A stretch of DNA of 64,000 nt, taken from the NCBI RefSeq assembly GCF_000829395.1, contig NZ_AP014680.1, forward strand, positions 1,922,001 through 1,986,000, in the 5' to 3' direction. The notes beneath the pieces were generated by a model, which searched no databases, was not told the origin of the DNA, and worked only from the letters and a program-made list of their open reading frames with translations. The position numbers and the translations under genes were made by a program. Positions within the stretch are counted from its first letter, which is position 1, and each line of letters opens with the position of its first letter. Shown one piece after another: positions 5,421-52,576 of this stretch. The stretch is from Paucilactobacillus hokkaidonensis JCM 18461 (lineage in GTDB: Bacteria > Bacillota > Bacilli > Lactobacillales > Lactobacillaceae).

Positions 5421-5426
5421 TATGTC

Positions 5427-5690
5427 AGATTAAAGGACGAGCTGATTAGTAATCCGATAGAGATGTTAAGACATAGGCTGAAATCTTAACTGTTAGGAAA
5501 GTTAATCATGTACTACCTTTGAATATCTATTTCCGAAACAAGGAAATTCAGGTGGTTCCTGCTAGCAACCAATGGAGGCAAGATTATTGTGCATTTTAAA
5601 AGCACACATCTTGTGAACATGGGTGGAACCACGTTAGAAATGTTAATAACGTCCCTAGTATCAAACGATACTAGGGGCTTTTTTTATTTT
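5427..5690 (+). promoter_or_regulatory. T-box leader (threonine) of thrS
   Basis: tRNA-sensing antitermination leader. The T-box sequence TGGGTGGAACCACG is at 5620-5633. A terminator follows: CCCTAGTATC (5653-5662) pairs with GATACTAGGG (5667-5676), then a T run. Stem I can be closed by AAAGG (5432-5436) with CCTTT (5516-5520). The specifier then reads ACU (5512-5514) followed by A, a threonine codon, matching the gene it controls. Uncharged tRNA-Thr would raise thrS expression. Confidence 0.92.
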
Positions 5691-17858: not shown

Positions 17859-18139
17859 AAAAAAGCGTCCTTGTCATAATTTTCATTACGACAAGGACGC
17901 TTTTGCGTGTTACCACCTTGATTTATAACATACTCACATATGCTATCTCAATCGGAACTGAATAAGATCAATACCGTGGCATTATATTGGGTGTCTGCCC
18001 ATAATCTCTCGAAAAAGATTAACGCTTTAGATAATCTTTCGTCATCAGGAACTTACATCTTCTCATCATCGATGCTTGCTGAAAAGTTCGCTAATAATTA
18101 ATCCACTATCTAAGTTACACGTCGTGCATCAAATTTGTT
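17859..18139 (-). promoter_or_regulatory. T-box leader upstream of the PanE-like gene
   Basis: On the minus strand the T-box motif AAGGTGGTAACACG (17919-17906) precedes a terminator in which GCGTCCTTGTC (17865-17875) pairs with GACAAGGACGC (17890-17900), followed by six T. Stem I can be closed by AACTTA with TAAGTT. I cannot settle the specifier: GAU fits the spacing seen in the thrS leader, but this is not reliable. The only downstream gene on this strand is the PanE-like reductase. Confidence 0.8.
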
Positions 18140-22007: not shown

Positions 22008-22037
22008 TTGACAACCCTATTCAGTTTAATCTATACT
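22008..22037 (+). promoter_or_regulatory. promoter of the trpXYZ-like leader transcript
   Basis: TTGACA (22008-22013), 18-bp spacer, TATACT (22032-22037). The start near 22044 leaves only ~28 nt before the leader ORF, too little room for a T-box stem I. The ~200 bp between the serC promoter and this one is AT-rich and holds nothing I recognise. Confidence 0.7.
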
Positions 22038-22071
22038 TATTCACATTAAGACGACGTAGGAGATTAGTCAT

Positions 22072-22119
22072 ATGAGCAATTACACACAACAATTGAATAA
22101 TGGTTGGCAAAGCCGGTAA
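22072..22119 (+). CDS. 15-residue leader peptide with a Trp codon
   Basis: Reads MSNYTQQLNNGWQSR. GTAGGAG stands 9 nt before the ATG, a strong site for such a short ORF. The Trp codon (22105-22107) lies four codons before the stop, and a Tyr codon is at position 4. The stop codon overlaps the first arm of the hairpin system that follows. I interpret it as the sensing peptide of an attenuator for the tryptophan-type transporter operon downstream. Confidence 0.7.
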   Translation: MSNYTQQLNNGWQSR

Positions 22120-22232
22120 TTCGGGTTATGTGTGTTCATCACAGATATAACCTGAATTTTCAGATTATATCTGTGCCGACTTATTAAGTTTTACGAGTCT
22201 GCATGGATTTTCCACTGCAGGCTTTTTCTTTT
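22118..22232 (+). promoter_or_regulatory. attenuator: competing hairpins and terminator
   Basis: Segment 1 (22118-22134) pairs with segment 2 (22140-22158). Segment 2 (22140-22150) also pairs perfectly with segment 3 (22165-22175). GTGCCGACT at the end of segment 3 can pair with AGTCTGCAT (22196-22204), the 5' arm of a terminator (22196-22223 plus TTTTTCTTTT). A ribosome held at the Trp codon would leave segment 1 free, favour 1:2, free segment 3 and block the terminator. A ribosome at the stop would do the opposite. Confidence 0.6.
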
Positions 22233-22241
22233 GTCATTTAG

Positions 22242-22276
22242 AAGAAGTCACCGCAATGGGGACTTCTTTTTTATTT
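22242..22276 (+). terminator. second terminator in the trpXYZ-like leader
   Basis: AAGAAGTC (22242-22249) pairs with GACTTCTT (22261-22268), with CC/GG continuing inside around a GCAAT loop, then a T-rich tail. It lies just after the attenuator terminator and 50 bp before the first structural gene. Confidence 0.6.
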
Positions 22277-22326
22277 TCAAAATGATACGTTATGTAATCA
22301 AATTTTAGATGGGGTGGTTATTAATT

Positions 22327-23319
22327 ATGAAACGCATGTATGGGTTTATAGCTATTATTTTAGTTTTTCTTGGATTTGCCTACTTTATGGAAGGTGGCTC
22401 AATAACCAAAAATAAAATACCTAAGGTTGGTATTTTAACTTTGATGCATCAACCCGCATTGGATCAAATTCATAAGGGTGTTGTCGCTGGGTTAGCAAAA
22501 GAAGGCTACCACGATGGTAAAAATATTAAAATCGATTACCAAAATGCTCAAGGTGACCAAAGTAATTTGAAAACAATGAGTACTAAGTTAGTCAATGAGG
22601 ACAATAATGTTATCGTTGGTATTACCACACCAGCAGCACAAGCACTAGCTAATACAACAACTAAAATTCCAATTGTTTTAGGAGCAGTAACCGATCCAAA
22701 ATCGGCGGGACTAGTCAAAAATAATAAAAAACCAGGTGGCAATATTTCTGGGATCTCTGACCAGGCACCATTAGAAGAACAATTGAAATTAATTCAATCG
22801 TTTATGCCCCACTTAAAAACGCTAGGAATCATTTATACTTCCAGTGATAATTCAGCTGTGACAGAAGAAAAAAAATTCGTGGCATTATGTAAAAAAGAGC
22901 ACGTTAACCTGAAAACATACTCGATTTCCAATAGTAATGATCTAAATCAAGTCTCTCAAGAAATGATGACCCAAGTTGATGCAGTCTTTGTTCCAACTGA
23001 CAATACAATTGCCGGAGCAATGCAAACACTCGTTAAAAATGCTGATGCAGCCAATAAACCGATTTTTCCTACTGTTGATACAATGGTAAAAGATGGTGGT
23101 GTTGCAACCTACAGTATTAACCAATATAAGTTAGGTGTGCAAGGCGGTAAATTAGCGGGTCAGATTCTTAAAGGTAAAAAGGAAACTGCCACTACTGCAA
23201 TTCAATATATTCGTCACGGTGAACCAACATTGAATTTAAAACAAGCTAAGAAATTAGGACTACATGTCCCAACTAAATTCTTACAGGATGCACAGAAAAA
23301 TGGGGAGGTCTTCAAATGA
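22327..23319 (+). CDS. trpX: ABC transporter substrate-binding protein, TrpX (PF04392) type
   Basis: 330-residue extracytoplasmic binding protein of the ABC_sub_bind family, whose lactic-acid-bacterial members are annotated as tryptophan/tyrosine binders. The N-terminus is a hydrophobic anchor (residues ~4-20) with no lipobox cysteine, so it is probably membrane-anchored rather than a lipoprotein. I use the ATG at 22327, 9 nt after GGGGTGG; the ATG at 22309 precedes that site. The stop overlaps the permease start by 4 nt (ATGA). Substrate assignment rests on family and on the Trp codon in the leader. Confidence 0.8.
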   Translation: MKRMYGFIAIILVFLGFAYFMEGGSITKNKIPKVGILTLMHQPALDQIHKGVVAGLAKEGYHDGKNIKIDYQNAQGDQSNLKTMSTKLVNEDNNVIVGITTPAAQALANTTTKIPIVLGAVTDPKSAGLVKNNKKPGGNISGISDQAPLEEQLKLIQSFMPHLKTLGIIYTSSDNSAVTEEKKFVALCKKEHVNLKTYSISNSNDLNQVSQEMMTQVDAVFVPTDNTIAGAMQTLVKNADAANKPIFPTVDTMVKDGGVATYSINQYKLGVQGGKLAGQILKGKKETATTAIQYIRHGEPTLNLKQAKKLGLHVPTKFLQDAQKNGEVFK

Positions 23320-24215
23320 ATTTAATCGTATCAGCAATCGGGCAAGGCCTATTATGGGCTATCTTAGGCCTCGGCTTATTTCTAACTTTTAGAATATTAG
23401 ATTTTCCCGATATGACCGTTGAAGGAACTTTCCCATTAGGTGCGGCTGTGGCAGTTACTGCTATCGTCCACGGAATGTCACCACTACTAGCAACATTTCT
23501 CGCTTTTATTGCGGGAATGATCGCTGGTTTGATTACTGGCCTCTTATACACGAAAGGAAAAATCCCAATTTTACTGGCTGGAATCTTAACTATGACAGCT
23601 GCCTATTCAATTAACCTACGAATCATGGGCAAATCAAATACCTCTCTGATAGGACAAAAAACTTTGCTTAAGACAAAATTTTTGTCAAGCTTACCAACCT
23701 ATTTTGACAGTGTTCTATTAGGAATGATCATCATTGCAATTATCACAATTATCTTGATTTTCTTTTTGCAAACCGATCTAGGTCAATCATTTATTGCCAC
23801 AGGTGATAATGAAAAAATGGCTAAATCATTGGGAATCCATACAGACAACATGAAAAACATGGGACTCATGGTTTCTAATGGTATGATTGGTATCTGTGGT
23901 GCTTTAATTGCACAAAGTAATGGCTATGCGGATATCAACATGGGAATTGGTACCATCGTGATTGCGTTAGCTTCGATTATTATTGGTGAAGTTGCCTTTG
24001 GCGAACTAACGCTTAATCAACGGTTAGTTGCAGTAACTTTGGGTAGTATTATTTACCGCCTAATTCTCTTAGCCGTATTGCAACTAGGTTTCAGTGCAAA
24101 TGATCTAAATGTACTTTCTTCCATCGTTTTGGCACTTTGCATGATGTTGCCACAATTTAAAAAGGCACTGCATTTAGAACACGTATTCTCAAAGGGGGTT
24201 AAGGTTGATGACTAA
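23316..24215 (+). CDS. trpY: ABC transporter permease, TrpY-like
   Basis: 299-residue membrane protein of the branched-chain-type (LivH-like) permease family, with about eight hydrophobic segments and the conserved FLTFRILDFPDMTVEGTF start and IALASIIIGEVAFGE near the end. It is the channel subunit of the operon's importer and is translationally coupled to the binding-protein gene by a 4-nt overlap. The ATPase gene overlaps its end by 8 nt. Confidence 0.85.
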   Translation: MNLIVSAIGQGLLWAILGLGLFLTFRILDFPDMTVEGTFPLGAAVAVTAIVHGMSPLLATFLAFIAGMIAGLITGLLYTKGKIPILLAGILTMTAAYSINLRIMGKSNTSLIGQKTLLKTKFLSSLPTYFDSVLLGMIIIAIITIILIFFLQTDLGQSFIATGDNEKMAKSLGIHTDNMKNMGLMVSNGMIGICGALIAQSNGYADINMGIGTIVIALASIIIGEVAFGELTLNQRLVAVTLGSIIYRLILLAVLQLGFSANDLNVLSSIVLALCMMLPQFKKALHLEHVFSKGVKVDD

Positions 24216-24972
24216 ACCAATTTTGGAATTAAAAAACGTTGCTACACTTGTCAACAAAGGAACTTCTAACGAGACCAAAATTCTTAAAAAACTAAATTTA
24301 ACGATCAATGATGGTGATTTCATTACAATTGTTGGTTCCAATGGTGCTGGTAAATCAACACTTTTTAACGTAATTGGCGGTAATCTACCCGCTGATTCTG
24401 GAGAATTACTGTTACATGGCCAAAATATTACAAATCAAAACGAAGAAGAACGCACTAAGTTTTTAAGTCGCGTCTTTCAGGATCCAAAACTAGGCACTGC
24501 TCCAAGAATGACTGTTGCTGAAAATTTATTATTGGCACAAAAACGTGGTGAAAAGCGAAGATTGAAACCACGTCAGCTAAAACAATCAATGGAAAAATTC
24601 ACTAAATTAGCTGCTACCATGAACAATGGCCTTGAAGAAAGAATGAACACAGCTACTGGTAATTTATCCGGTGGTCAACGCCAAGCATTAAGCTTCTTAA
24701 TGGCCACGCTAAAACGACCAGACGTTATCTTACTTGATGAACATACGGCGGCATTAGATCCTCGCACCAGTCAAGAATTATTGCACGCAACAAATCAACG
24801 AATTAATGAAGATCATCTAACTGCATTAATGATTACGCATCACTTAGAAGCCGCATTGAAATATGGTAATCGACTAGTAGTACTAGATGATGGCCAGATT
24901 AAAGCAGACTTTAAGGGTGCGGAAAAAGAGCAACTGACGATGGATCAGTTGTATGAGTATTTCGAAATATAG
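24208..24972 (+). CDS. trpZ: ABC transporter ATP-binding protein, TrpZ-like
   Basis: 254-residue ATPase: Walker A VGSNGAGKST at about residue 42, signature LSGGQRQALS, Walker B with VILLDEHTAALD and switch histidine in MITHH. DEHTAALD rather than DEPTAALD is usual in this transporter group. The start is ATG 24208 behind AAAGGGGGT; a TTG sits one codon upstream. The TAG stop is the first codon of hairpin element 3. Confidence 0.88.
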   Translation: MTKPILELKNVATLVNKGTSNETKILKKLNLTINDGDFITIVGSNGAGKSTLFNVIGGNLPADSGELLLHGQNITNQNEEERTKFLSRVFQDPKLGTAPRMTVAENLLLAQKRGEKRRLKPRQLKQSMEKFTKLAATMNNGLEERMNTATGNLSGGQRQALSFLMATLKRPDVILLDEHTAALDPRTSQELLHATNQRINEDHLTALMITHHLEAALKYGNRLVVLDDGQIKADFKGAEKEQLTMDQLYEYFEI

Positions 24973-41871: not shown

Positions 41872-41920
41872 AAATTTGCTTTTTATCGCCAAATAACTTA
41901 TATTGGCTATGAATCAATAT

Positions 41921-41998
41921 TACATCTGGGGTGCCATTCGGCTGAGATATACCCATTGAACCTGCTCTGGTTAGTACCAGCGAAGGGAGATAATTAGT
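41921..41998 (+). promoter_or_regulatory. TPP riboswitch (THI box)
   Basis: Contains the conserved GGGGTGCC, CTGAGA, ACCC, GAACCTGCTCTGG and TTAGTACCAGCGAAGGGA elements in order. It lies upstream of ykoEDC with a terminator directly after, so thiamine pyrophosphate would stop transcription. Confidence 0.95.
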
Positions 41999-42024
41999 CA
42001 ATCAATTCGATTAACGATTAGTGA

Positions 42025-52407: not shown

Positions 52408-52576
52408 ATTCTCAATGTGTATTGGTAGCAAAACTACCTCAGATTATCAGAGTTCCACAACACATAATAATCGAACACCCTACACATCCGGTAGGAATAC
52501 GTGTCCCACTAAAAAAGTCACCAGCCGCTTGCGCGAAACAATCAAAAGATTGTCTGACTTTCTCGACTCATCGCAT
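52369..52576 (-). ncRNA. unassigned structured RNA of about 205 nt
   Basis: A promoter and a terminator bracket a stretch with no credible ORF. On the minus strand it folds locally into AAAGTCA/TGACTTT closing two hairpins (ACAATC-TTTT-GATTGT and CGC-GCAA-GCG, a GNRA loop), then GGACAC/GTGTTC around CCTAC/GTAGG, then ATGTGTTG/CAATACACAT around GGTAG/CTACC. It lacks the signatures of RNase P, tmRNA and SRP RNA. The length suits 6S RNA, but I do not see its single long rod with central bubble. No gene follows on this strand, so it is not a leader. Confidence 0.6.

Follow-up and report, generated by a model that had tools for sequence, protein, structure and literature searches.

A candidate leader-peptide transcription attenuator upstream of trpXYZ in a lactobacillus and its relationship to the trpB motif RNA family

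The window, that is, the entire 64,000-nucleotide stretch of DNA analyzed here, comes from a 2.4-Mb genome (contig 1, 2,277,985 bases) and encodes a TrpXYZ-type transporter on its forward strand. The first gene, trpX (22327-23319, +), specifies a substrate-binding protein (SBP) that scored 473.1 bits against NF041285 (cut-off, 390) and also matched PF04392; it is followed by a TrpY-like permease gene (23316-24215, +; PF02653, 88.9 bits) and a TrpZ-like ABC ATPase gene (24205-24972, +; PF00005, 104.7 bits). The trpX copies of six further genomes of the genus were 78-92% identical to that of the window, the nearest named ones being those of Paucilactobacillus wasatchensis (92%) and P. kaifaensis (90%). 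The promoter claimed in the original prediction was borne out as a sigma-70-type element, TTGACA-18-TATACT, at 22008-22037 (+) with 11 of 12 consensus matches, and a comparable promoter, then a ATTAAGACGAC-type stretch, was found in leader-bearing relatives of the same genus. Elsewhere in the window were a TPP riboswitch match (41917-42005, +, 68.9 bits), an Enterococcus sRNA 68-type RNA (52450-52575, -, 94.6 bits), and two T-box matches below the gathering score (5424-5659, +, 50.5 bits; 17890-18112, -, 48.4 bits).

Between the promoter and trpX, a Shine-Dalgarno sequence, AGGAG (22058-22062, +), precedes a 15-codon ORF that starts at ATG 22072 and runs to 22119 (+), encoding MSNYTQQLNNGWQSR followed by a stop codon; the short ORF and ribosome site originally predicted are therefore both present, as expected of a putative ribosome-mediated attenuator. 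The candidate sensor is the Trp codon TGG at 22105-22107 (+). Trp occupied the same column in 94 of 100 aligned loci, and the remaining 6, none of them upstream of TrpX, had CTG-CGA there. The predicted position of Trp four codons before the stop holds in the window but not in relatives, where the distance varies from about three to eight codons, and a fixed spacing was dropped. Textbook leader-peptide attenuators carry more than one codon for the regulated amino acid, a number that the lone Trp codon of the window leader falls below.

The RNA segments that follow, all on the forward strand, offer several alternative pairings. Strand A, AGCCGG (the Ser-Arg codons, 22111-22116), can pair with strand A' (22176-22181); segment 1 (22118-22131) can pair with 22145-22158 to form helix 1:2; and segment 2 (22140-22158) can pair with either segment 1 or segment 3 (22161-22175). 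The first terminator, recognized from its sequence and fold, consists of a 5' arm, T5 (22196-22208), and a 3' arm with its U-run, T3 (22212-22227). From 22195 onward, T5 can instead pair with 22169-22182, the 3' part of segment 3 together with A', in an antiterminator. Folded singly and compared with 200 shuffles, the two exclusive hairpins and the terminator of the original prediction were each confirmed (1:2, -14.2 kcal/mol, z -5.3; 2:3, -16.9 kcal/mol, z -8.3; T5:T3, -14.6 kcal/mol, z -5.3), and the antiterminator reached -13.0 kcal/mol (z -3.4, with 1 of 200 shuffles as good). The full leader (22044-22280) folded at -75.8 kcal/mol versus -47.8 ± 4.2 for its shuffles (z -6.6, 0 of 200 as good). 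The A:A' helix of the window contains one C.A mismatch and has an alternative 7-bp pairing, 22103-22109 with 22174-22180.

Within the genus, trpX was present in all seven examined genomes and the leader in five, with peptides ending TQQLNxxWQSR; the other two loci (L036 and L037) have no leader before trpX, only a promoter and then a short plain terminator. A Trp-Gln leader was found at 28 of the 30 best family loci, and a covariance model (R1) was built from 27 of these loci with the ORF region included. R1 matched in 266 of 397 Lactobacillaceae genomes, representing 28 of 40 genera, and in 58 of 295 genomes (26 of 74 genera) of the order, further families among them. The original expectation that a peptide-leader attenuator would be unusual in this group did not hold, for at trpXYZ it is the rule in Lactobacillaceae. 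Diverged Trp-codon leaders were also recognized by eye in 17 of 20 R1-negative genomes with TrpX, including some with tandem Trp codons (WWRR, WWRS, WWRI, and, in L187, WWW). Trp leaders were found in L. reuteri, L. johnsonii, Levilactobacillus brevis, Weissella uvarum, and Fructobacillus ficulneus. A simple rule applied to 24 named loci gave no convincing leader in Mannheimia, S. vestibularis, P. argentinicus, and several clostridia and treponemes, and those leaderless named loci covered by the Rfam search showed no T-box (E up to 0.05). At the three leaderless TrpX loci (L036, L037, and L183), visual inspection revealed no paired helices, and R1 gave no match. L118 contains a fragment of TrpX, and L132 was rejected by eye as a tRNA-like stretch. 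At L116/L248 (G049:C1:26817-26965), the place of trpX after a Trp leader is taken by an ORF resembling a reverse transcriptase (by eye of the group II intron type), which seems to have been inserted downstream of the terminator.

Covariation was assessed by permutation tests, within whose statistics shared ancestry remains. In an alignment of 27 sequences, the A:A', 2:3, and terminator helices together had 95.7% of cells paired, 12 pairs changed on both sides, and a covariation of 0.349 versus 0.205 ± 0.011 (0 of 500 shuffles on all five measures). The antiterminator played no part in building any alignment, and it was nevertheless 89.7% paired in the 27 sequences, with a covariation of 0.281 versus 0.186 (0 of 500 for both) and a conserved mismatch in its middle. 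Helix 1:2 covaried little in this set (one pair changed on both sides, equaled by 206 of 500 shuffles). A second alignment (A2) comprised 100 loci picked among R1 hits, so that their all matching R1 is uninformative; left out of it were L045, L046, L056, L117, L118, L130, L132, L165, and L173, along with further loci among L061-L113, mostly second copies, and the diverged L174-L191. This alignment was fitted to A:A' but not to 1:2 or the antiterminator. In it, the antiterminator was 83.2% paired (0 of 500 shuffles for paired cells and covariation, 72 of 500 for pair types), and helix 1:2 was 89.7% paired (0 of 500 for paired cells and covariation, with 138 of 500 shuffles matching the count of pairs changed on both sides). 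The claim that a freed third segment could mask the terminator 5' arm thus gained support from covariation across relatives, by which the mutually exclusive antiterminator and terminator are both kept.

Strand A adds a feature that had not been predicted. In the 100 loci, A:A' was 93.6% paired with 47 cells changed on both sides (0 of 500 for both), the number of pairs so changed being equaled by 79 of 500 shuffles; in the unfitted alignment A1, it was 96.3% paired. Compensation was visible in individual leaders, with AGTCGG in A facing CTGACT in A' and AGCCAG facing CTGGCA. Across 109 loci that were chosen blind to the ORF (see below), the end of each leader paired with its own A' at -8.4 kcal/mol, versus -5.8 ± 0.2 with swapped partners (0 of 5,000); the helix is weak in several WQNWRR-type leaders. 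Because A and A' change in compensation, the residues after Trp seem to be set by RNA pairing, and Trp itself by sensing.

The element is also longer than first proposed. Of the extent originally assigned to it, 22072-22232, the 3' end did not stand: terminator 1 occupies 22196-22227, and a second hairpin with a T-run (22241-22269, +; -14.3 kcal/mol, z -4.2) belongs to the element, which therefore extends to about 22272. A second hairpin with a T-run lay downstream in 93 of the 100 loci, and in 21 of these 93 the first hairpin had, by our count, a poor or absent U-run; at those loci, termination may depend on the second. In the window, a proposed 10-bp relay helix, 22220-22229 with 22240-22249 (+; -8.7 kcal/mol, z -3.1), excludes both terminators. 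Pairing between the 3' arm and U-run of terminator 1 and the 5' arm of the second hairpin averaged -7.64 kcal/mol versus -5.32 ± 0.21 when permuted (0 of 5,000), with 24% of loci no better than their own shuffled arm. The two terminators thus seem to be coupled through the relay helix, as their complementarity suggests.

The window leader coincides with a match to the Rfam family RF04312, the trpB motif (22138-22234, +; locus L031, 1312-1408), which at 52.3 bits falls short of the gathering score of 59; homologous copies exceed it (e.g., L143, 63.8; L248, 86.6). The trpB motif (SRC-39-1) was described in 2024 as having over 900 members across Firmicutes and Fusobacteria, with at least two hairpins, and as being associated most often with the gene of an amino-acid-type ABC transporter (PMC11109978). 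The window agrees with this description in having two hairpins, of which the second is a terminator, and an antiterminator in the right (3') shoulder of P1, P1 being the 2:3 helix and P2 terminator 1; it also agrees in gene types, amino-acid-type ABC transporter and trpB. In contrast, the available part of PMC11109978 describes no ORF, strand A, segment 1, or second terminator. Searches of the open-access literature with the names of the trpB motif returned PMC11109978 only, and among the matches listed for trpXYZ and for leader peptides no paper claimed a leader for the motif.

R1 was built with the ORF region and so cannot test for the ORF; RF04312, which has none, was used instead. At E up to 0.001, it was found in 127 of the 227 genomes searched in the order (45 above the cut-off); in a second order of the phylum, it matched in 29 of 147 genomes, 0 of which reached the gathering score. 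It was rare outside these two orders, with matches in 5 of 398 genomes drawn across the phylum, the source genome included and two false hits among them. Leaders were called by a fixed rule (ATG, Shine-Dalgarno of at least 4 letters, 8-50 codons, and stop near the RF04312 hit). Relatives with the hairpins but no ORF, the pattern named beforehand as refuting, were not seen: 109 of 120 loci (119 places, L247 being the same as L291) had a rule-defined leader, compared with 131 of 3,645 random positions in the same loci. Among the other 11, 6 showed by eye a leader that fails the rule (L247/L291, L265, L295, L312, and L336, whose start is unverified), and 5 (L301, L313, L315, L317, and L333) looked like plain terminators and were rejected by eye as leaderless. 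L217 and L218 were likewise rejected, as plain terminators near unrelated genes.

The codons of the leaders tracked the genes downstream, which were named by BLAST cluster, with one or few proteins per cluster scanned against protein families. Trp leaders lay upstream of TrpX-type SBPs and of five TrpB genes (L252, L259, L263, L297, and L335; the one cluster member scanned scored 612 against a cut-off of 392). Three or four His codons were present at all nine HisS/HisZ-type genes of the set; the HisS with an HHHH leader scored 372 against a cut-off of 287 (one cluster member scanned), and the HisZ (L219), at 218, was under its NCBIfam cut-off of 272 and was named by PF13393. A YYFSYF leader preceded four AroE genes (233 versus 200, one cluster member scanned). 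The three scored SBPs with Trp leaders exceeded the TrpX cut-off of 390 (window, 473; L214, 625; L323, 410), whereas the five scored SBPs with Tyr/Phe leaders, which precede a set of PF04392 SBPs, fell under it, at 316-343. On an SBP tree of 134 rows, 129 of them different (the duplicates being L260/L147, L275/L151, L265/L144, and L269/L143, plus L194/L198, identical neighboring paralogues), the codon label (117 Trp, 17 Tyr/Phe) changed 2 times, versus 16.3 when shuffled (0 of 500). One of the 17 Tyr/Phe rows, L336, proved to be a wrong-frame ORF whose right frame ends SWQSWQG, so that one of the two changes would remain. Five genomes carried both a TrpX with a Trp leader and a paralogue with a Tyr/Phe leader; the latter was present at seven of the nine paralogue loci in those genomes (L192-L196, L198, and L199), and the other two (L197 and L200) lie directly 3' of another coding stretch. 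Likewise, the leaders of sodium:neurotransmitter symporters were mostly runs of Leu, Phe, or Tyr, and these labels changed 2 times on the symporter tree, the minimum possible, versus 10.9 when shuffled (0 of 200; 26 of 28 loci, the two without a rule-defined leader being omitted).

The codons thus named the amino acid handled by the controlled genes, BrnQ excepted: two BrnQ-family genes, L225 (TIGR00796, branched-chain) and L229 (by BLAST cluster), have Tyr/Phe leaders that clash with their annotation, which either predicts aromatic substrates or is a mismatch. In six copies from four genomes of one genus (L115, L120, L123, L124, L126, and L131), CTG-CGA replaces TGG-CAA and the leaders read RLRSR or RLRSQ; these precede polar amino-acid-type SBP-permease fusions and one OppA-like protein, and the sensed residue may be either Leu or Arg. 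Trp-codon leaders also occurred before a 193-aa ORF (L327; a membrane protein by eye), whose product may be another Trp importer, and before an OppA-like protein (L324). In Streptococcus gordonii (L404, 1259-1461), a Tyr/Phe-type leader, MVKQTSSQTIKLNTYFYFSFFR, precedes a TrpX-like SBP and lies in or beside a subthreshold match to RF02863, "Enterococcus sRNA 2410" (39.6 versus 61 bits); some of the sRNAs annotated in enterococci may be leaders of this attenuator family that ended at the terminator.

Judged from its sequence and those of its relatives, the window element is very probably a ribosome-mediated transcription attenuator, and the logic originally proposed, in which 1:2 would free segment 3 with the ribosome at Trp and 2:3 would form with the ribosome at the stop, fits the covarying helices and the gene-tracking codon. 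The leader would be transcribed while a ribosome translates the 15-codon ORF. With charged tRNA-Trp in short supply, the ribosome would wait at TGG 22105, covering strand A and leaving segment 1 free; 1:2 would then form, segment 3 and A' would engage T5, and transcription would enter trpXYZ. With Trp plentiful, a ribosome at the stop would cover segment 1, 2:3 and terminator 1 would fold, and transcription would halt; after ribosome release, A:A' and 2:3 could hold the antiterminator closed. By the proposed relay, an opened terminator 1 would leave its 3' strand available to the 5' arm of terminator 2, whose hairpin would open in turn. With other codons, the same scaffold would respond to other amino acids. 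We infer that ribosomes stall, which way the switch responds, in what sequence the steps follow, and that the relay acts in living cells.

These states were modeled by folding leaders truncated at T5 whose 5' portion was masked as far as 14 bases beyond the first base of the Trp or stop codon; each probability is the mean of 27 leaders and, for any one helix, takes in the better two thirds of its pairs. A ribosome at Trp gave predicted probabilities of 0.80 for 1:2 and 0.81 for the antiterminator; at the stop, 2:3 rose to 0.92, with the antiterminator still at 0.55; and the unmasked, untranslated leader favored 1:2 and the antiterminator (0.63). In 23 of 27 leaders (4 of 27 going against this), masking to Trp made the antiterminator more probable than masking to the stop did, and in 25 of 27 it did so relative to the unmasked state. 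The modeled difference between Trp and stop is of moderate size, and without masking the switch is not plainly in its off state. Since terminator 1 of the window exceeds the antiterminator in stability by 1.6 kcal/mol and is retained in the best fold of 22117-22236, the choice between them must be kinetic, as is usual for attenuators.

Might the nascent chain itself stall the ribosome in response to a ligand, as in TnaC, rather than codon starvation? In 69 of 109 leaders, a hydrophobic residue with Asn directly after it stood 5-14 residues ahead of the end of the leader, which hints at peptide selection; the feature was found across specificities, the hydrophobic residue being written with many codons. 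An arrest peptide of the TnaC type is conserved beyond the sensor residue, and the leader comparison found no such conserved peptide past that residue: what follows the sensor varies (WQSR, WQNWRR, WWRR, WQFQH, WQSQ), whereas A:A' is kept. Chemically different sensors within one scaffold, and the expectation that an importer should switch on by lack of its substrate and not by excess, also argue against ligand-sensing arrest, which we regard as very unlikely. A metabolite riboswitch, in which an amino acid would be a direct ligand of the RNA and the ORF would be of no consequence, is the reading under which the trpB motif was published: PMC11109978 considered it a strong candidate, with the antiterminator in the right shoulder of P1, and left a protein factor or a classic attenuator possible. 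The spread of the hairpins through the order and the second order would accord with this. However, one scaffold carries Trp, His, Phe, Tyr, Leu, or Arg codons that match different downstream genes, and an aptamer would therefore need a new pocket each time; moreover, most of the strongly conserved bases lie within helices or codons. A riboswitch appears highly improbable. In the alignment, no aptamer core apart from helices and codons was visible.

The six RLRSR/RLRSQ copies raise the further idea of leaders at which antibiotic-stalled ribosomes open the terminator, Arg-Leu-Arg being known from drug-responsive leaders (PMC8632094). The scanned downstream genes, however, were amino-acid or peptide transporters and amino-acid enzymes, with no resistance genes among them, and the TrpX-linked leaders have Trp instead; a drug response has exceedingly little to recommend it. 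The chance that trpXYZ is under T-box control and the short ORF fortuitous seems negligible, even though the trpXYZ operon of Streptococcus suis is so controlled (PMC9382623) and the source genome has 32 T-box matches, 10 above the cut-off, because the leader is absent from those 32 sites and the T-box model RF00230 gave no match at the locus. Elsewhere in the same genome, trpB (641.6 bits) was identified, and upstream of it, within the trp biosynthetic region, lie three T-box matches below the gathering score (28-36 bits versus 93), two of which show GGUGGUACCGCG. With T-box-like elements at biosynthesis and a peptide leader at trpXYZ, the two look to be governed by different devices.

Ribosome-mediated attenuation thus remains our reading of the window leader, and one of the closest known systems is the S. 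suis element. The latter, a 461-nt T-box described in PMC9382623, resembles the window in operon type, in being predicted to be on when Trp is short, and in acting by transcription termination; it senses uncharged tRNA directly, whereas the window leader would sense by way of the ribosome. The classical E. coli trp and his attenuators share with the window a short translated leader containing codons for the regulated amino acid, alternative helices, and an intrinsic terminator, as treated in the available part of PMC9413887. Relative to these, the window adds a helix (A:A') made by the codons after the sensor and two seemingly coupled terminators. In E. coli trp, 2:3 is the antiterminator; in the window, by contrast, starvation is predicted to favor 1:2, freeing segment 3 for 3:T5. 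The mechanism as such is known, and earlier reports from Firmicutes place it at His and branched-chain genes, with his attenuators in the B. cereus group, Eubacteriales, and Erysipelotrichales (PMC9413887), leader-peptide attenuators at hisS paralogues in bacilli (PMC2965389), and a branched-chain leader in S. aureus (PMC5794164). These share mechanism class and phylum with the window, but they concern His or branched-chain genes, and nothing on trpXYZ or the trpB motif was found in the available parts of the three sources. Some HisS/HisZ leaders of our set may overlap the known His group.

As far as comparison can show, the window attenuator is a local member of a large family, part of which was published and taken for a possible riboswitch. 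To the original prediction, our analyses seem to add two features, namely, that codons after the sensor pair with an antiterminator strand and that a second conserved terminator is coupled by relay. RF04312 is probably one codon-programmable attenuator cassette, spread across Lactobacillales and at least one second order and redirected, through exchange of a few leader codons and the strand pairing with them, to at least Trp, Tyr/Phe, Leu, His, and perhaps Arg, with two terminators opened via a relay. A codon-reading attenuator would explain a widespread published riboswitch candidate, with a single codon change serving as a test. The coupled double terminator, if true, would be an unusual means to tighten an attenuator switch. 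The leader codons would also predict transporter substrates beyond what similarity affords, as for the Tyr/Phe sister clade of TrpX and the three sodium symporter clades, and leader-peptide attenuation would take its place, alongside T-boxes, as a standing control of Trp import in lactobacilli and their relatives.
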